A DNA stretch of 38,663 nucleotides, from positions 1 through 38,663 of the forward strand of contig JAPPQH010000003.1 of the NCBI GenBank assembly GCA_028817035.1. Direction: 5' to 3'. This document shows, piece by piece, positions 8,852 to 36,721 of this stretch. The position numbers and the translations under genes were made by a program. This stretch comes from Candidatus Campbellbacteria bacterium. GTDB lineage: Bacteria > Patescibacteriota > Minisyncoccia > Phycocordibacterales > JABAAK01. Each line of letters begins with the position of its first letter. Position 1 is the first letter of the stretch. The notes beneath the pieces were generated by a model, which was given only the letters and a program-made list of their open reading frames with translations, was not told where the DNA came from and did not search any database.

Positions 8852-8936
8852 ATATTATTCTTTAATACCATTTTACCCTGTTTTTGATGGGCCAACTTCA
8901 TAAATAACTTTATCCACAATAAATGCTTTTTCATTG

Positions 8937-8973
8937 TTGAGAGCTTATATAATAGAGTATATAATCTATTATA
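8937..8973 (+). promoter_or_regulatory. Promoter with overlapping inverted repeat (probable C-box) for the RM controller gene
   Basis: TTGAGA (8937-8942), a 17-base spacer and TATAAT (8960-8965) place the transcription start almost on the ATG at 8974, so the mRNA should be leaderless or nearly so. A perfect inverted repeat TATAATAGA (8948-8956) / TCTATTATA (8965-8973) with an 8-base spacer overlaps the -10 box and abuts the start codon. Overlapping operators and leaderless mRNAs are known for RM controller proteins such as C.AhdI and C.Esp1396I. Confidence 0.7.
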
Positions 8974-9243
8974 ATGCGTACTCGTAAAGAAGTTGTCGGT
9001 ATAGGAAAAAGAATCAAAACCAAAAGAGAGGAAAAGGGCCTTTCTTTGGAAAAATTAGCGGATAAGGCAAATGTTGCTTTTACCACTATGTTCAAATTAG
9101 AGAGAGGGGAAATAAAAAATCCATCTGTTGCCACGATAATGGATGTAGCTAAAGCTTTGTGCGTAGAACGGGATATTTTAATTGGGGATGATGTTAAAAA
9201 GTTGAAAACGATAACATCTCCAAAAAGAAAATTGAAAAAATAA
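8974..9243 (+). CDS. XRE-family controller (C) protein of the restriction-modification system
   Basis: The 89-residue protein is essentially one helix-turn-helix domain of the XRE/Cro type. The scaffold IKTKREEKGLSLEKLADKAN, the turn VAFTTMFKLERGE and PSVATIMDVAKAL are visible at about residues 13-66, with a basic tail. The size and the position directly before a fused restriction-methylation gene are typical of C proteins, which delay and limit restriction activity after entry into a new host by binding boxes at their own promoter. An inverted repeat overlaps its -10 box. A 12-codon reading frame (9245-9283) bridges this gene and the next; its TGA overlaps the next ATG. Confidence 0.85.
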   Translation: MRTRKEVVGIGKRIKTKREEKGLSLEKLADKANVAFTTMFKLERGEIKNPSVATIMDVAKALCVERDILIGDDVKKLKTITSPKRKLKK

Positions 9244-9279: not shown

Positions 9280-11172
9280 ATGACACATATAAATAAACCA
9301 AACGATAGTGAAGTTGATGCTTACACTTATATTAAGGAAGAATTAGAAAGTTTAGGGTGGAACATAAAAAACCCAGCAAAAGTTAGTGTTGGTGAGGTTT
9401 ATAAACAGAATGAAGCATTAAGCAACATAGACATTAAAAGTTGCTTGAATAGAAATAGGCCAGAAGCAATTGTTAAAGTATCAGATAATATATTTTGGAT
9501 TATAGAATCAAAAAGAACCAAGGATGAAATAAATAAAGCTTTAGATGAGGCAAAAAATCAATATGCCAAAAAAATCAACAAGAGTTTATCAATTAGTGCC
9601 CCATTAGTTTCTGGCGTTGCGGGTAATTTAACCGACGGATTTTTAGTTGAAACTCAAATTCTTAAAGATGGCCAATGGAAAACAATTCTTTTTAATGGAA
9701 GGAAAAAAAGAACTCTACTCTCTAGACCACAAGCGAAGTATATCATCAAAACTAAAAATATTGATTATAAAGAATTTCCAGATATACCACAACAAAAATA
9801 TATAAGTGCAGGAGTTGAAATTAATGAGATACTTCATAATTCAGGTATCAATAAAAACAAAAGAGCGAGATTTATTGCGGCCCTAATACTTTCAACATCA
9901 ACCGGAGAAAGGGTGGATTTTGTAAAAGAGAATACAAAGACATTAATAAGAGATATAAATAATTTAATTCAGCAGAAGTTAGACGAGGTTGGCAAATCAA
10001 ATTTCTATGATTTTATTAAATTAGAATTGCCGCCATCTCAAGAAAATCATCATAAATACAGAGAAGCGATTATACAAACATATAATAAATTAGACACACT
10101 TGAGATAAGAAATTCAATGGACTCTGGGAGTGATGTGTTGGGCGAGTTTTATACGACATTCCTAAAGTATGGTAATGGAGCAAAGGAGATTGGTATAGTT
10201 TTGACACCCAGGCATATAACTAAATTTGCAGTTGAAGTGTGTGATATAAATTACAAAGATATAGTGCTAGACCCAGCCTGTGGCACTGGCGGTTTTCTAG
10301 TTTCAAGTTTAGATAAAGTAAGGAGAGAATCAACGGGAGAAAGATTTGAGAATTTCAAAAAATATGGACTTTTTGGTATAGAGCAAGATGATGAAGTTGT
10401 GGCATTAGCACTTGTTAATATGATTTTTAGAGGTGATGGTAGGCATAATATGAGAGAAGGCAATTGTTTCAATAATAATATAACTAATAAAACTGAAGGA
10501 GGCAACCAAACAGCACAATTTGAATCTAGAGATGGTATTAATAATACCAGACCAGCCATTACAAAAGTTTTAATGAATCCGCCTTTTTCTCTAAAAAAAG
10601 AGGATGAAAAAGAAAGCAAATTTATTGATTACGCATTAGATCAACTCAAGGACAAAGGAATACTTTTTGCAATTACTCCAGTTTCTGTTATGACTGAAGG
10701 GAAGAGTGGTTCTAAGTGGAGAAAAAAATTATTAGAAGAAAACACGATACTTTCTGTTGTTACTTTTCCAGATATATTTTATCCGGTTTCTATAATAACC
10801 GTTGGGATTTTTATTAAGAAGGGTGTGCCACATGATTTTGAAAACCAAAATGTATACTTTGCTAGGATTAATGATGATGGTTTCACAAAGAGAAAGGGCA
10901 AGAGAGTGTTTAATGATTCAGTTGAAAATGATTTAGATAAAATAAAAAAAGAATTGGTTGCTTTTATAAAAGATGAAAATATAAGTATAGATAATGTTCC
11001 GGAATTTAAAAAAGTTGCAAAATTGGATAAAGATGATGAAACACATGAGTTAGCACCTGAGGCATATCTTGACACAAAAGTTTTGACTAGAAAGGAGATA
11101 GAGGATGGTGTAGAGGAAATGATACGAGAGTCTGTTGCTTTTAGAATCAGATATAACAAGAAATTTAAGTAG
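9280..11172 (+). CDS. Fused restriction endonuclease-DNA adenine methyltransferase (BcgI A-like, type IIB)
   Basis: This protein modifies adenine in, and probably cleaves beside, a bipartite DNA site when joined to its specificity subunit. The 630 residues contain an N-terminal region resembling the HsdR_N/PD-(D/E)XK nuclease fold, with P61-E62 and E76-S77-K78 spaced as in that motif. The middle and C-terminal part is a gamma-type N6-adenine methyltransferase with motif I LDPACGTGGF near 330-339 and motif IV NPPF near 433-436. No separate HsdR gene is present. Length and two-gene layout match BcgI (A about 637, B about 341 residues). The alternative is an ordinary HsdM with an unrelated N-terminal extension; the ESK motif makes a nuclease more likely. 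Confidence 0.82.
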   Translation: MTHINKPNDSEVDAYTYIKEELESLGWNIKNPAKVSVGEVYKQNEALSNIDIKSCLNRNRPEAIVKVSDNIFWIIESKRTKDEINKALDEAKNQYAKKINKSLSISAPLVSGVAGNLTDGFLVETQILKDGQWKTILFNGRKKRTLLSRPQAKYIIKTKNIDYKEFPDIPQQKYISAGVEINEILHNSGINKNKRARFIAALILSTSTGERVDFVKENTKTLIRDINNLIQQKLDEVGKSNFYDFIKLELPPSQENHHKYREAIIQTYNKLDTLEIRNSMDSGSDVLGEFYTTFLKYGNGAKEIGIVLTPRHITKFAVEVCDINYKDIVLDPACGTGGFLVSSLDKVRRESTGERFENFKKYGLFGIEQDDEVVALALVNMIFRGDGRHNMREGNCFNNNITNKTEGGNQTAQFESRDGINNTRPAITKVLMNPPFSLKKEDEKESKFIDYALDQLKDKGILFAITPVSVMTEGKSGSKWRKKLLEENTILSVVTFPDIFYPVSIITVGIFIKKGVPHDFENQNVYFARINDDGFTKRKGKRVFNDSVENDLDKIKKELVAFIKDENISIDNVPEFKKVAKLDKDDETHELAPEAYLDTKVLTRKEIEDGVEEMIRESVAFRIRYNKKFK

Positions 11173-11173
11173 C

Positions 11174-12127
11174 ATGAAATTTAAGGATTTATTTCATATA
11201 GATTACGGTCAAAAAGAGTACCATGATAAAAGTAATCTAACGGATGGAGATGGAGATAAAATTTTAATTTCTTCAAAGGGTGAGGACGGTGGCATATATG
11301 GTTTTTTTGATATTCCCAGAGATGGCTATAAAGCACCAATAATTACAGTTCCAAGCACTGGCACAATAGGGCAAGCATTTCTTCAACTACGAGATTGTTC
11401 TGTTGATGACAATTGCTTGGTCTTAATACCAAAAGATAAAAACATGTCGGAAGAAGAAATGTATCAAGTGATATATCAAATTAGAAAATTAAAATGGCGT
11501 TTTAAATATGGGCGACAAATAACTCCCGAGAGATTGGGTAATGAAAAATTAAAAATTATTGATACAAATATAGATAAGAAAAAATTAGAAAATCAACTTT
11601 CATTGAAGAAACCGAAAAATATAAAGGTTATTGACCCAAAAAAGTTTGTACATTTTAGAGTTGACCAAATTTGTTTGGTTGAAAAGAAAAAAGCACTTCC
11701 AAAGAATGCAATTAATTTAACAGGCAATATCCCATATGTCACAACATCTTCAAAAAATAATGGAGTTAAGGATTTCACCGATGAAGAAAGTAATTTTCCA
11801 AAAAATAGACTAACGGTTTCATTAAATGGTAGTGTTGGAGAAGTTTTCTTTCAAACCAAGGATTTTATTACAAGCACAGACAACGTTGTTCTTTCATTAT
11901 TGGAAGAAAAGTTCAAGGGAGATATAAAACTATTGTTATTTGTTGGATTTATGATTAAGCGTTATACTTGGGGATTTTCGTGGAGTAGAAAATTATCTAA
12001 GAAAAAACTAGAAAAATTAATAATAAATCTACCAGTAAATGATAAAAATGAGCTTGACTTAAAATATATACATTCTATTGCAGACAATAGTTTGGGAATA
12101 ACTGAATTGAAGGAGTATATAAAATGA
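11174..12127 (+). CDS. DNA specificity subunit of the type IIB/type I-like system (BcgI B-like)
   Basis: This subunit recognises the DNA target of the RM complex. The start at 11174 lies one base after the stop of the methyltransferase; an earlier in-frame start at 11135 would overlap it by 38 bases. The 317-residue protein shows two similar halves. Each opens with a KF..F motif (MKFKDLFHIDYG at 1, KKFVHFRVDQI near 155), followed by a target-recognition segment with a G(T/S)(I/V)G motif (TGTIGQAF, NGSVGEVFF), a D(N/D)(N/C) segment and a helix. Two target-recognition domains fit a bipartite site. The size matches the BcgI B subunit. Confidence 0.82.
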   Translation: MKFKDLFHIDYGQKEYHDKSNLTDGDGDKILISSKGEDGGIYGFFDIPRDGYKAPIITVPSTGTIGQAFLQLRDCSVDDNCLVLIPKDKNMSEEEMYQVIYQIRKLKWRFKYGRQITPERLGNEKLKIIDTNIDKKKLENQLSLKKPKNIKVIDPKKFVHFRVDQICLVEKKKALPKNAINLTGNIPYVTTSSKNNGVKDFTDEESNFPKNRLTVSLNGSVGEVFFQTKDFITSTDNVVLSLLEEKFKGDIKLLLFVGFMIKRYTWGFSWSRKLSKKKLEKLIINLPVNDKNELDLKYIHSIADNSLGITELKEYIK

Positions 12128-17527: not shown

Positions 17528-17538
17528 AATGTGTTTAG

Positions 17539-17612
17539 TCCACCCGCCTGGACTTGAACCAGGAACCCCGCGTGTATAAGACGCGTGCTCTAACCAATTG
17601 AGCTACGGGTGG
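17539..17612 (-). tRNA. tRNA-Ile (anticodon UAU)
   Basis: The full cloverleaf folds: acceptor CCACCCG/CGGGTGG, D-arm GCTC...GAGC, anticodon stem CGCGT/ACGCG with loop CTTATAC, and T-arm CCTGG-TTCAAGT-CCAGG. The loop places UAU at 34-36, so it reads the isoleucine codon AUA directly. CCA is not encoded. Most bacteria read AUA with a lysidine-modified CAU tRNA. Confidence 0.92.
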
Positions 17613-17639: not shown

Positions 17640-17826
17640 TTAGCGCGAACAGCCTTGCTGTTCGCTTGGTTTTGCTCGCAATCGCTCACTCCGTTCGCTT
17701 CTATTTATTATCGCTCGGCGGTTTCACCGCCTCGCTTGACGCAACTCGCAGGCTCGTTGCGGTCGGACTCACATATTCCAAACTATTCTGCTCGCAGGCT
17801 CGTTGCGGTCGGACCCGTGCCCTCTA
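17640..17826 (+). repeat. REP-like hairpin repeat cluster 1
   Basis: Between tRNA-Ile and the next promoter (more than 300 bases without a gene) there are: a GCGAACAGC/GCTGTTCGC hairpin (17645-17665), a TTATCGCTC unit with the GGCGG-TTTCA-CCGCC hairpin (17716-17731), and two GCAAC...GTTGCGGTCGGAC units (ending near 17768 and 17815), the second truncated at its left. Confidence 0.8.
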
Positions 17827-17877
17827 ATCTATTCCGTTTGCTCACGCCCCTCACCCTGCGATTCTTTCACCCCGCAC

Positions 17878-17906
17878 TTGACAAAAATACCCATATGACT
17901 TATAAT
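17878..17906 (+). promoter_or_regulatory. Perfect consensus promoter
   Basis: TTGACA (17878-17883), 17 bases, TATAAT (17901-17906). The leader then has two hairpins, CGGTC-TTT-GACCG (about 17914-17926) and CCAATC...GATTGG (about 17928-17946), ahead of the AGGAGG SD. Confidence 0.85.
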
Positions 17907-17989
17907 GATAATAACGGTCTTTGACCGCCAATCACCCTGCGATTGGAGTTAATCGCAGATTTGTCCTTTCAAAACAGGAGGAAACGTTA

Positions 17990-18490
17990 ATGTGTATGAG
18001 TCAGTTGCTAAACAAATTGAAGGAGGAAGAGGCTAAAGCCTTCAAAGCACACCGCTCCGAGCTCGAAAAGAGCGCCGGGCTGTATTTTGCTTTCGCAGGC
18101 TTGTGTGTGGTTCCCATGGCCATCTTTGTTGGCATCGTCACCTACAACAGTTTTTACGAAAGCTTTGGTGACGATGCGTTGGTTGTGGGAACACTCATCG
18201 TATGTGGCGTCCTCTCAATCCTTTTCAAGTGTGTTACGGGGAGCGAGCCGATTGATATGGAGCCATCTCCAGAAAAAATGTGTAGGGCGTCCTCTCCGTT
18301 CTTTTTCTTTTTGCTTGGTGTGTGGTTTAGTTTGTGGTTCGTAGGTGAAAGCAACCCACAGGTCCATGCAATCGCCATGTTCATAAGCATGGATTACATG
18401 TTGCTGTTGCTCCTATGCTTGCATTCCTACTACCACCCCCAAACCTGGAGAAACCATGACGAGGGGCGAGTGGATGCACAGGGTGCATGA
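17990..18490 (+). CDS. Four-TM membrane protein, array member 1
   Basis: The family is not recognised. The ATG at 17990 follows an ACAGGAGGAAACGTTA SD; an upstream in-frame start at 17921 lies in the leader hairpins. The 166-residue protein has a charged N-terminal helix of about 28 residues (KLKEEEAKAFKAHRSELEKS) and four membrane segments at about 29-50, 62-80, 102-119 and 124-147. It resembles the two downstream paralogues in layout and in the last segment (FISMDYMLLL compare FVTLDCAWAY). Isoleucine is mostly ATC, unlike core genes. It sits in its own promoter-hairpin-SD-terminator cassette. The function is unknown; the size and layout are holin-like or immunity-protein-like, without direct evidence. 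Confidence 0.8.
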   Translation: MCMSQLLNKLKEEEAKAFKAHRSELEKSAGLYFAFAGLCVVPMAIFVGIVTYNSFYESFGDDALVVGTLIVCGVLSILFKCVTGSEPIDMEPSPEKMCRASSPFFFFLLGVWFSLWFVGESNPQVHAIAMFISMDYMLLLLLCLHSYYHPQTWRNHDEGRVDAQGA

Positions 18491-18511
18491 AGCACCCAAT
18501 CCTCGGACATA

Positions 18512-18550
18512 GAGCCATGGCAAACTTCGTTGCCATGGCTCACTTTTTTA
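18512..18550 (+). terminator. Rho-independent terminator of array gene 1
   Basis: A perfect 12-bp stem (GAGCCATGGCAA/TTGCCATGGCTC, 6-base loop) followed by ACTTTTTTATT. Nearly the same terminator, with the same 30 bases before it, ends array gene 3 at 20272-20310. Confidence 0.95.
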
Positions 18551-18798
18551 TTATCGCTCGGCGGTTTCACCGCCTCGCTGACGCAACTCGCAAGCTCGTT
18601 GCGGTCGGACTTATACCCCAACAATCTATTACATTCGCTTGGTCACCCCTATTTACTATCACTCACGGCTCCGCCACTCGCTGACGCAACTCATAAATTC
18701 GTTGCGGTCGGACTCACGCCCTCCAATCTGTCGCAGGCTCGCAAAGGTCGGACTCACGCCCTCCAATCTGTCGCAGGCTCGTTGCGGTCGGACTCACA
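18549..18798 (+). repeat. REP-like hairpin repeat cluster 2
   Basis: Four to five units fill the gap before the next promoter. One carries GGCGG-TTTCA-CCGCC followed by GCAAC...GTTGC (18549-18612). The next has a GGC-TCC-GCC version and the AATTTATGA-type loop (18651-18714). Two 40-base tandem units follow (18721-18760 and 18761-18800), the first with a GCAAA in place of GTTGC. Confidence 0.85.
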
Positions 18799-18804
18799 CT
18801 TCAT

Positions 18805-18833
18805 TTGACATTAACATTTATATACTCTACCCT
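18805..18833 (+). promoter_or_regulatory. Promoter of array gene 2
   Basis: TTGACA (18805-18810), 17 bases, TACCCT (18828-18833). The leader has a GGCAAC-TTGTT-GTTGCC hairpin (about 18845-18861). The stretch from about 18795 to the ATG is nearly identical to that before array gene 3. Confidence 0.75.
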
Positions 18834-18892
18834 TAATAACAGAAGGCAACTTGTTGTTGCCGAATGATCTTTTCAAAACGGAGGAAGTGGTT

Positions 18893-19468
18893 ATGGAAAA
18901 ACCCGTTCTTTTAATCCCTGGTGGTCTTTGGGTGAAACTTTCTAACTCTCATGCTGGGCAATTGGAGAGGAAGGTTGGAGAAGTCCAAAGAGGGTATTGC
19001 AAGATGTTTATGAAACAGAATATAGTGGGCTTGCTGTTGCTGTTAGCCCCCATCTTCTTACTCGCCAATTTTGTGAACTTCATCTGTGTTTACAGCTTTG
19101 GTCCTCATTTTGACTCTTGGGATACTCTCTCTTCTCTCATCCTCTTCTCTTTCCTTTGCAAAGCCCTTTCTTTTCCGAGGCGGTGTGACATGAGTGTGTT
19201 TGGGGAGGATTTTTGGGAAAAGGGAACTCTGCTTTTCTTGTTGGGTTATCTGGTAGTGTGTGCCTTGTCTATTCACGAGTCACATTTGTTTGCGTTTGCC
19301 ATGTTCGTGACGCTTGACTGTGCGTGGGCCTATTTGGTCTGTCATTGGTTTAAGGCAAGTGGCGAAACTGTCAGAAAGCGGGACTTTAAAAAGTCACTGG
19401 AACCCATGTTCAAGGAAGCGAGAAGTACAGTAGGAGAAAGCACACACTTGTGCGTGGCGAAAACTTGA
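18893..19468 (+). CDS. Four-TM membrane protein, array member 2
   Basis: The family is not recognised. The ATG at 18893 follows an ACGGAGGAAGTGGTT SD. The 191-residue protein has a soluble N-terminal part of about 42 residues, membrane segments at about 43-68, 78-96, 110-127 and 130-150, and a basic cytoplasmic tail (KASGETVRKRDFKKS). Between segments 2 and 3 it carries FPRRCDM (94-100) and EDFWE (105-109), both shared with array member 3 (FPRSCDM, EDFWE). The conserved Cys and charged loop are the best candidates for a functional site. It is transcribed from its own promoter, with a GGCGGACTT/AAGTCCGCC terminator. Confidence 0.8.
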   Translation: MEKPVLLIPGGLWVKLSNSHAGQLERKVGEVQRGYCKMFMKQNIVGLLLLLAPIFLLANFVNFICVYSFGPHFDSWDTLSSLILFSFLCKALSFPRRCDMSVFGEDFWEKGTLLFLLGYLVVCALSIHESHLFAFAMFVTLDCAWAYLVCHWFKASGETVRKRDFKKSLEPMFKEARSTVGESTHLCVAKT

Positions 19469-19484
19469 AGCCACGGCAGCTTGG

Positions 19485-19514
19485 GGCGGACTTAAAAAGT
19501 CCGCCTCTATTTTA
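19485..19514 (+). terminator. Rho-independent terminator of array gene 2
   Basis: A 9-bp stem GGCGGACTT/AAGTCCGCC with an AAA loop, followed by TCTATTTTATT. Confidence 0.9.
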
Positions 19515-19577
19515 TTATCGCTCGTGGCTCCGTCACTCGCTGACGCAACTCATAAATTCGTTGCGGTCGGACTCACA
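19511..19577 (+). repeat. REP-like hairpin repeat unit 3
   Basis: One complete unit: TTATCGCTC, a GTGGC-TCC-GTCAC hairpin (one G-U pair), CGCTGACGCAAC, the loop with AATTCG, then GTTGCGGTCGGACTCAC. Confidence 0.85.
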
Positions 19578-19583
19578 CTTCAT

Positions 19584-19612
19584 TTGACATTAACATTTAT
19601 ATACTTTACACT
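19584..19612 (+). promoter_or_regulatory. Promoter of array gene 3
   Basis: TTGACA (19584-19589), 17 bases, TACACT (19607-19612), then the same GGCAAC/GTTGCC leader hairpin (about 19623-19640) as before array gene 2. Confidence 0.8.
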
Positions 19613-19671
19613 TAATAACAGAAGGCAACTTGTTGTTGCCGAATGATCTTTTCAAAACGGAGGAAGTGGTT

Positions 19672-20250
19672 ATGGAAAGGATTATTGTGGTTGTTCCCGA
19701 TAGGTCCTGTATTGTAATTTCTGGCGACAGCGAGCAAGAACTGGATAAAAAGTGTAAAAAAGTTAAGAGCGATTTGGAAAAAATCCAGAACAAATATCGC
19801 GAGGTATTTGCGCAACAGAACGCAATGCAATTGTTGTTGCTATTGATTCCCATTCTTCCTTTTGCTGTCTTTTTGAACTTCGTCCTTGTCAACACCTTCG
19901 GCTTTCACAATAACCTTTGGCACTTTCTTGTTTTTTGCAGTGCGTATTCTTTGGGTCTCAAGGTTTATTATTTTCCGAGGTCGTGTGACATGAGGGTGTT
20001 TGCGGAGGATTTTTGGGAAATGGAGTCTATGTTTACCAAGATCTCTCTGGTTTTTCTGTACTCAGCGTCTCTCTTTGACCCACAAGTGTTTGTGTTTGCC
20101 AAATTCGCACTGCTTGATAGCTTGTGGATCTGGCTTGTCTATCGTTGGTCTAAGGCAAGCGATAGGACTGTCAGGGCGGAGCACTTTGAAGAGGAGTTTA
20201 TCAAGGTGACAAGGGAAACAGAGAAATCTGCAACCATACGGAGTGCATGA
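19672..20250 (+). CDS. Four-TM membrane protein, array member 3
   Basis: A paralogue of the gene at 18893, of unknown family. The ATG at 19672 has the same SD and leader as array member 2. The 192-residue protein has a soluble, coiled-coil-like N-terminus (EQELDKKCKKVKSDLEK, about 21-37), four membrane segments (about 52-76, 83-100, 118-133 and 136-155), the shared FPRSCDM (101-107) and EDFWE (112-116) motifs, and a charged tail. Its 5' flank matches array gene 2 but its 3' flank (AGCACCCAATCCTCGG and the terminator) matches array gene 1, so the cassette looks recombinant. Confidence 0.8.
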   Translation: MERIIVVVPDRSCIVISGDSEQELDKKCKKVKSDLEKIQNKYREVFAQQNAMQLLLLLIPILPFAVFLNFVLVNTFGFHNNLWHFLVFCSAYSLGLKVYYFPRSCDMRVFAEDFWEMESMFTKISLVFLYSASLFDPQVFVFAKFALLDSLWIWLVYRWSKASDRTVRAEHFEEEFIKVTRETEKSATIRSA

Positions 20251-20271
20251 AGCACCCAATCCTCGGACATA

Positions 20272-20310
20272 GAGCCATGGCAACGCAGTTTGCCATGGCT
20301 CACTTTTTTA
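20272..20310 (+). terminator. Rho-independent terminator of array gene 3
   Basis: A 12-bp stem GAGCCATGGCAA/TTGCCATGGCTC followed by ACTTTTTTATT. The loop differs from that at 18512-18550 but the stem is identical. Confidence 0.95.
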
Positions 20311-20505
20311 TTATCGCTCGTGGCTCCGCCACTCGCTGACGCAACTCGCAATCGCTCACTCCGTTCGCTTCTATTTATTATCGCTCGTGGCTTCGCCACT
20401 CGCTGACGCAACTCATAAATTCGTTGCGGTCGGACTTATACCCCAACAATCTATTACATTCGCACGCTCGCAAAAGTCGGACTCACGCCCTCCAATCTGT
20501 CGCAA
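20309..20505 (+). repeat. REP-like hairpin repeat cluster 4
   Basis: Two complete TTATCGCTC units with GTGGC-TCC-GCCAC and GTGGC-TTC-GCCAC hairpins (about 20311-20345 and 20381-20437). A degenerate unit with GCAAAAGTCGGACTCAC follows (about 20462-20490). This fills the 328-base gap after array gene 3; no gene is seen in it. Confidence 0.85.
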
Positions 20506-33388: not shown

Positions 33389-33423
33389 TAAAAACAGGTT
33401 CTTTAAAAACAGGAGGTAAGACC

Positions 33424-34329
33424 ATGAGTGACGTCTACCTGCCACAACAACCCCAAAACATAGAGGTCCAATACCTCGATCTCTTAATGGGGACAATGGA
33501 GTGTGGCAATATTCGTGATGGAAGAAATGGGAAAACCCTTTCTCTTTTTGGCGAGATAATTCGCCACGACATGTCTTTGGGGTTTCCTCTTTTGACGACA
33601 AAGTACATGCCCTTCCACCTCATCTTGAGTGAACTTCTTTGGTTCATCTCTGGCTCAACCGACACCAGAATCTTGAACGATCTTGACTGCAAGATATGGA
33701 ATGCCAACGCAAACGCTGGCTATTGGTTGGAAAGAGGTTATGCCAAGTTTGAAGGAGATGCGGGCAGAGTATACGGTGCACAGTGGAGAGGGTGGGCAAG
33801 GCCAAACGGATCACATGTAGACCAGTTGGCGAAGGTGATAAAGATGATCAAGGAAACTCCAAGCGATAGGAGACTGGTTGTCCAAGCCTTCAACCCAGGT
33901 GAGTTGGACCAAATGTGCCTACCGCCTTGTCATATGGGTTTCCAATTCTACTCTGCTAACGGCGAGCTCTCTTTGATGATGTTCCAGCGTAGTTGCGATA
34001 TGTTCCTGGGCGTCCCCTTCAACATCGCATCTTATGCGCTGCTTCTATGCTTTGTTGCTCAGATTGTCGGTCAGACACCCAAAGAACTCAAAATTGTTCT
34101 TGGTGATTTCCACATCTATGCAAATCACATGGATGCGGTGAAAGAGCAACTTAGCAGGAAAACACATCCCTTGCCCAAGCTTGTCATAAACAAGAATATC
34201 AAGGCACTTAAAGACCTTGAGTTGGGTAAAAAGGGTGGAGTTCCGATAGATAAGGATGCTGTCAAACGAGTTGCTTGGTTAGAGGGATACACCCACGAAC
34301 CAGCAATTCGTGCCGAAATGGCAGTCTGA
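33424..34329 (+). CDS. thyA: Thymidylate synthase ThyA
   Basis: ThyA methylates dUMP to dTMP with methylene-tetrahydrofolate. The 301-residue protein carries the catalytic Cys169 in LPPCHMGFQF, the RRLVVQAFNPGE phosphate-binding stretch, the QRSCDMFLGVPFNIASYALL signature, and DFHIYANHMD. It is a little longer than E. coli ThyA (264 residues). A strong AGGAGG SD stands 9 bases before the ATG. The gene is in the SD-driven cassette style (own promoter, SD, GC-rich terminator) and not in an operon with folate genes. A normal folate route is not visible in the window. Confidence 0.96.
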   Translation: MSDVYLPQQPQNIEVQYLDLLMGTMECGNIRDGRNGKTLSLFGEIIRHDMSLGFPLLTTKYMPFHLILSELLWFISGSTDTRILNDLDCKIWNANANAGYWLERGYAKFEGDAGRVYGAQWRGWARPNGSHVDQLAKVIKMIKETPSDRRLVVQAFNPGELDQMCLPPCHMGFQFYSANGELSLMMFQRSCDMFLGVPFNIASYALLLCFVAQIVGQTPKELKIVLGDFHIYANHMDAVKEQLSRKTHPLPKLVINKNIKALKDLELGKKGGVPIDKDAVKRVAWLEGYTHEPAIRAEMAV

Positions 34330-36679: not shown

Positions 36680-36721
36680 GTTCTTTTTGAACCCATAGTT
36701 TTGAAAAAGGAGGTAAAGAAA

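Follow-up and report, generated by a model that had tools for sequence, protein, structure and literature searches.

How do genes whose proteins have diverged strongly come to stand between flanks that are nearly identical? The question is raised by three neighbouring genes for predicted four-transmembrane (4-TM) proteins on contig C3 of a Candidatus Campbellbacteria bacterium (genome G000, 566 kb, a size in keeping with Patescibacteria, 97% complete, 17 contigs); the whole contig, of 38,663 bases, is referred to here as the window. Sequence comparison points to autonomous cassettes, each comprising promoter, leader, ORF and terminator, whose flanks have probably been homogenised or swapped by recombination as the ORFs diverged, in an array restricted to this lineage.

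Layout of the array

With ung/tRNA-Ile on one side and recG on the other, the array shares its contig with housekeeping genes. An earlier, sequence-only reading had correctly placed the ORFs of its three cassettes, together with their start codons, promoters, Shine-Dalgarno sequences (SDs) and terminators. The array occupies the plus strand and opens with REP-like units (17640–17836) adjoining the tRNA-Ile gene (17538–17612, minus strand). Cassette 1 has a promoter, read from the sequence (17880–17910; TTGACA, 17-nt spacer, TATAAT), and a leader of type B (17911–17989) comprising a hairpin, a second hairpin with a GGAG loop (CTGCGATTGGAGTTAATCGCAG), a boxA-like GTCCTTT at 17963 and the SD AGGAGG. 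Its ORF, c1 (17990–18490), encodes a 166-aa 4-TM protein, and is followed by a 3′ flank with terminator T2 (18491–18560), whose 12-bp stem is common to cassette 3. REP-like hairpin repeats (18546–18800) occupy the gap before cassette 2, in which a REP tail, a promoter (TTGACA) and a leader of type A (18779–18892; GGCAACTTGTTGTTGCC hairpin, GATCTTT at 18866, SD CGGAGG) precede c2 (18893–19468, encoding a 191-aa 4-TM protein) and a terminator (19469–19515) with the stem GGCGGACTT. A REP-like unit (19507–19580) fills the second gap. Cassette 3 consists of a promoter and type A leader (19558–19671, GATCTTT at 19645), c3 (19672–20250, encoding a 192-aa 4-TM protein) and a 3′ flank with terminator T2 (20251–20320), and further REP-like units (20303–20504) close the array. 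REP-like units separate the cassettes, as had been claimed, and stand at both ends as well. The recG neighbourhood of relatives was considered as a possible empty site, but neither a tRNA nor a similar layout was seen beside recG there. Elsewhere in the window (9280–12127), an ORF resembling a specificity subunit comes after a type I restriction-like methylase; the window contains no restriction subunit.

Flanks and coding sequences are discordant

Cassettes 2 and 3 share near-identical leaders (121 nt at 98%, with 112/114 positions before the ATG identical), a stretch slightly longer than the approximately 90 nt first described. Cassettes 1 and 3 share, also as described, a 3′ flank of 83 nt at 90%, which spans the last codons and the terminator and contains GTGCATGA AGCACCCAATCCTCGG and the 12-bp stem GAGCCATGGCAA/TTGCCATGGCTC; this flank accompanies proteins with 23% aa identity. 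At fourfold-degenerate sites, c2 and c3 matched at 13/20 positions, compared with the 112/114 upstream (Fisher p = 1.8e-5). Because fourfold sites match so poorly next to near-identical flanks, the flanks and ORFs of cassettes 2 and 3 have different histories. The proposal that cassette 3 is a cross of cassettes 2 and 1 thus holds for its flanks, the 5′ being of the cassette 2 type and the 3′ of the cassette 1 type, but not for its ORF, of which the coding part is 36% identical to c2 and 23% to c1; either partner may have been the donor.

A divergent family of membrane proteins

The strong divergence attributed to the three paralogues is evident from these identities. c2 and c3 are clear paralogues (35–36% protein identity, BLAST E 1e-31), both carrying the FPR(R/S)CDM and EDFWE motifs assigned to them, of which c1 retains only an aligned DM. 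By profile comparison, c1 is a remote member of the same family (hhalign 90.6%, E 1.3e-6 against a c2+c3 profile), and its score with c3 of 62 compares with 33 ± 6 in shuffles preserving the hydropathy profile, none of 300 scoring as high. A remote fourth copy, on contig C9, has the same leader as c2 and c3.

Four TM segments were clear for c1 by hydropathy, and compatible with the profiles of c2 and c3. Membrane location is well supported; the likeliest placement is the cytoplasmic membrane, with both termini on the inner side. An AlphaFold model of c3, of moderate confidence (mean pLDDT 69), has helices at 21–58, 61–76, 82–100, 107–132 and 137–162. Foldseek found no close fold for this model (best E 0.9 in PDB, 0.39 in BFVD), and the best VIA-align Z of 8.3 was not accepted as fold kinship, since it reflects helical arrangement and, for a model of this pLDDT, lies in the range expected without kinship. 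There was no family match in Pfam, NCBIfam, PHROGs, PADLOC or PDB sequences, no lipoprotein signal common to the 4-TM proteins, and no homologue among 197 relatives, GTDB genome contigs, IMG/VR or phages; two matches of E ~0.005 among the 197 relatives were short (15 bits) and were rejected. An FPRxCDM family in other Patescibacteria, suggested by the sequence-only reading, was searched for and not found. Comparison did not support a superfamily uniting the 4-TM proteins with the other membrane arrays of C9.

Shared flanks recur across the genome

At least seven arrays have shared flanks over diverged ORFs, and these include HAD-like, lipoprotein, other membrane and ORFan genes; loci were sampled near REP clusters and leader matches, making such counts lower bounds from a biased sample. 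The HAD-like pair on C11 is identical at 107/107 upstream positions, with 48% aa identity and 23/38 fourfold sites matching, and the HTH pair on C17 at 110/110, with 59% aa identity. In the three-gene array on C10 (L063, C10:57500–61000), one pair of genes reaches 83% identity and the third gene just 31% at the aa level (fourfold sites 8/21), beside a downstream flank of up to 366 nt at 98%; its leader has multiple hairpins. A lipoprotein pair on C8 (L050, C8:13790–16013, minus strand) shares leader and signal peptide, with 144 nt at 93% and 39% aa identity overall. For a membrane pair on C9, 74 nt of flank match at 96% and the proteins at 25% (fourfold sites 5/13), and a C14 helical pair has a common 3′ flank of 42 nt at 95% and 28% aa identity. 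For the C9 small-membrane pair, the discordance of flank and ORF was not significant (p 0.43).

Flanks are shared by unrelated genes too. A search with the c2 leader matched upstream of non-homologous genes on C14, C10, C11 and C17; type A leaders precede 4-TM, HAD-like, helical and 43-aa genes, and type B leaders precede c1 and ORFans from C14:11600 and from C8:22185. In three copies of the type B hairpin (window 17940–17965; L036:3599–3692 and L051:2185–2276, both minus strand), the GGAG loop is invariant and the stem changes are compensatory. The cassette 2 terminator stem (GGCGGACTT) recurs in the C14 helical genes, and nowhere else among the stretches compared. Leader identity was 93–100% within most arrays, and between arrays (type A) roughly 85–96% over shorter stretches and 86% in the longer matches, where promoter spacer and REP tail vary. 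Outside this genome, no leader DNA was found in 59 relatives, genome contigs or viral contigs, and in Rfam the gathering score was reached by tRNA alone. A single-contig genome of the same family, G005, has tandem ORF cassettes laid out as here. At C1:475500–481000 of G005 (L099), tandem secreted leucine-rich-repeat-variant proteins (PF01816; 199 and 527 aa) have leader and signal peptide in common and differ in repeat number.

REP-like repeats

REP-like units are dispersed, with about 74 matches genome-wide. Of the two hairpins in these units, one occurs with three stem alleles; pairing is kept in 94.8% of cells, and double changes in the stem numbered 24, compared with 9.1 in shuffles (0/500 as high), for distinct variants chosen by hand from the match list. 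They could supply the homology for recombination, as the sequence-only reading suggested. Like bacterial REP elements, they are multicopy, intergenic imperfect palindromes with covarying stems; unlike REP/RAYT systems, no RAYT transposase (PF01797; Y1_Tnp) was found in this 97% complete genome, and stem alleles and flanking tag are the genome's own. Several contigs end inside the repeats (C6:1–135 and 8930–9060, C9:27850–28025, C13:4288–4326), and arrays may therefore be under-counted or broken by assembly.

A boxA-like element in the leaders

Leaders follow the order promoter, often a hairpin, G(T/A)TCTTT, then SD. In the genome stretches sampled for this count, G(T/A)TCTTT occurred in the 67 nt ending 8 nt before the start codon of 23/99 SD-bearing ORFs, compared with 2.0 ± 1.3 after base shuffling and 3 when the opposite strand was scored. 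The pattern GTTCTTT-N0–30-AGGAGG has 19 occurrences in the genome, against 2 for the reversed pattern (9 against 0 in G005), and most relatives are near chance. The element lies mostly 6–14 nt after a -10-like box, or 23–42 nt with an intervening hairpin, and in c2/c3 the stretch reads GATCTTTTCAAAAC. The 16S leader of this genome carries GATCTTTAACAT, and those of relatives GCTCTTTAACCA, GTCCTTTTAACA and GTTCTTTGCACA; no clear boxA-like sequence was seen in the 16S leader of relative G003. G(T/A)TCTTT is accordingly termed boxA-like here: it resembles the boxA of rRNA leaders and would be a form of that NusB/S10 site. Searches detected a NusB gene here (E 5e-34) but none in G005, a genome with the same boxes.

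In minimal leaders, GTTCTTT follows the -10 box by 6–14 nt, and the SD comes almost immediately after it. These precede mostly ORFans (C12:14000–17855, C5:13383, C9:10696, C6:8108, and in the window from 16804, at 33398 and at 36680), and also a thymidylate-synthase-like gene at 33424 in the window. An anti-SD hairpin as the sole reason for the CTTT element was rejected as a general explanation, because minimal leaders (GTTCTTTTTAGGAGG) can form no hairpin.

In E. coli suhB, where the Nus factor complex is involved, translation is repressed through a boxA located 6 nt upstream of the SD (PMC5725501), and here too the boxA-like element lies a few nt before the SD. Unlike suhB, the leaders described here stand on many accessory monocistronic genes, and are known from sequence. 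The Nus/S10 machinery is known mainly from rRNA. Tentatively, a 5′-terminal (hairpin)-boxA leader, spread among genes by copying, might define a family-wide regulon of a large set of accessory, lineage-restricted genes, in which this machinery would control the mRNAs or deliver ribosomes to them and concerted evolution of leaders would act as a genome-wide engine for new genes.

Discussion

In the proposed reading of recombining cassettes, each gene would be its own transcription unit, with a sigma-70-type promoter, 5′ hairpin, boxA-like element, SD, ORF and intrinsic terminator. Homologous recombination or gene conversion, anchored in leaders, terminators and dispersed REP-like hairpins, would copy the expression modules among neighbouring cassettes, and occasionally among unrelated genes, with the result that ORFs are duplicated, swapped and diverge under the same control. 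The genome behind this reading is assembled in 17 contigs, with breaks falling in these repeats.

Genes in tandem order, with proteins far more diverged than their flanks, are also what recent duplication of whole cassettes would leave behind if very fast diversifying selection then acted on the protein, and the flanks would then need no recombination. However, fourfold sites have diverged as in old copies (c2/c3 13/20, C10 8/21, C11 23/38), which weakens this alternative because selection on the protein does not explain synonymous divergence; the two flanks of cassette 3, moreover, match two different neighbours, and such a history is improbable. If the duplicates are instead old, purifying selection for common regulation, for example by a trans-acting factor, could by itself have kept the leaders identical, and promoter boxes, hairpin, box and SD are indeed conserved between unrelated genes. 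Yet identity within an array reaches into the promoter spacer and REP tail, which are variable between arrays of the same type (86%), and includes every one of the 107 upstream positions in the C11 pair, so that selection as the only cause seems unlikely. Chimeric joins in repeats might mimic shared flanks, and contigs do end in the same REP-like repeats, but the repeats here (about 120 nt) are below typical read length, the copies differ by a few bases, and the same layout is present in the single-contig G005; an assembly artefact is very improbable.

The sequence-only reading suggested a conflict, immunity or surface-variation system. Such a system, including one with phase-variable surface proteins, would be consistent with lineage-restricted arrays of divergent membrane proteins, and with the C8 lipoprotein array, in which the signal peptide is conserved and the body divergent. 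Against this, the 4-TM proteins have no substantial PADLOC match (a single one, of 13 bits) and no phage homologue, and HAD-like and HTH genes carry the same flanks. Since flank sharing is genome-wide and extends to unrelated proteins, it is not by itself a sign of conflict, immunity or surface variation; with a promoter and SD on every copy, moreover, none of the cassettes is silent. The reading is thus unsupported, and we give it little weight.

Recombining cassettes have a parallel in the Borrelia erp genes, in which one promoter and leader stands ahead of many diverged ORFs whose members recombine (PMC10016077). Near-identical promoter and leader DNA over strongly diverged ORFs is common to the erp (OspE/F-related, upstream homology box) genes and the present array. 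However, erp genes occupy an allelic site on cp32 prophages and their products are surface lipoproteins, whereas the array encodes 4-TM proteins, in tandem on a housekeeping contig, and has no cp32-type prophage plasmid site; it also differs in that there are several leader types and that terminators are common too. The most erp-like pair in the genome is that of the C8 lipoproteins, with their common signal peptide. The variable lipoprotein families of mycoplasmas likewise combine a conserved 5′ part and a divergent body in tandem arrays; here, a promoter precedes every copy, and neither silent copies nor switching of promoters was seen. Integron cassettes contain ORFs that are as a rule promoterless and attC-joined, whereas every ORF here has its own promoter and terminator.

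Accessory genes in this genome seem to be built from copied expression modules while their proteins diverge: old, diverged paralogues stand under young, homogenised modules that also drive unrelated genes. By a weak inference, the 4-TM proteins might serve to vary the cell envelope of a small, presumably host-associated bacterium. Through the boxA-like leader, accessory genes would be tied to the machinery of rRNA antitermination. Copying of expression modules could explain, in a way open to test, how new ORFs gain and keep expression, and so bears on the origin and expression of the many unplaceable genes of Patescibacteria.
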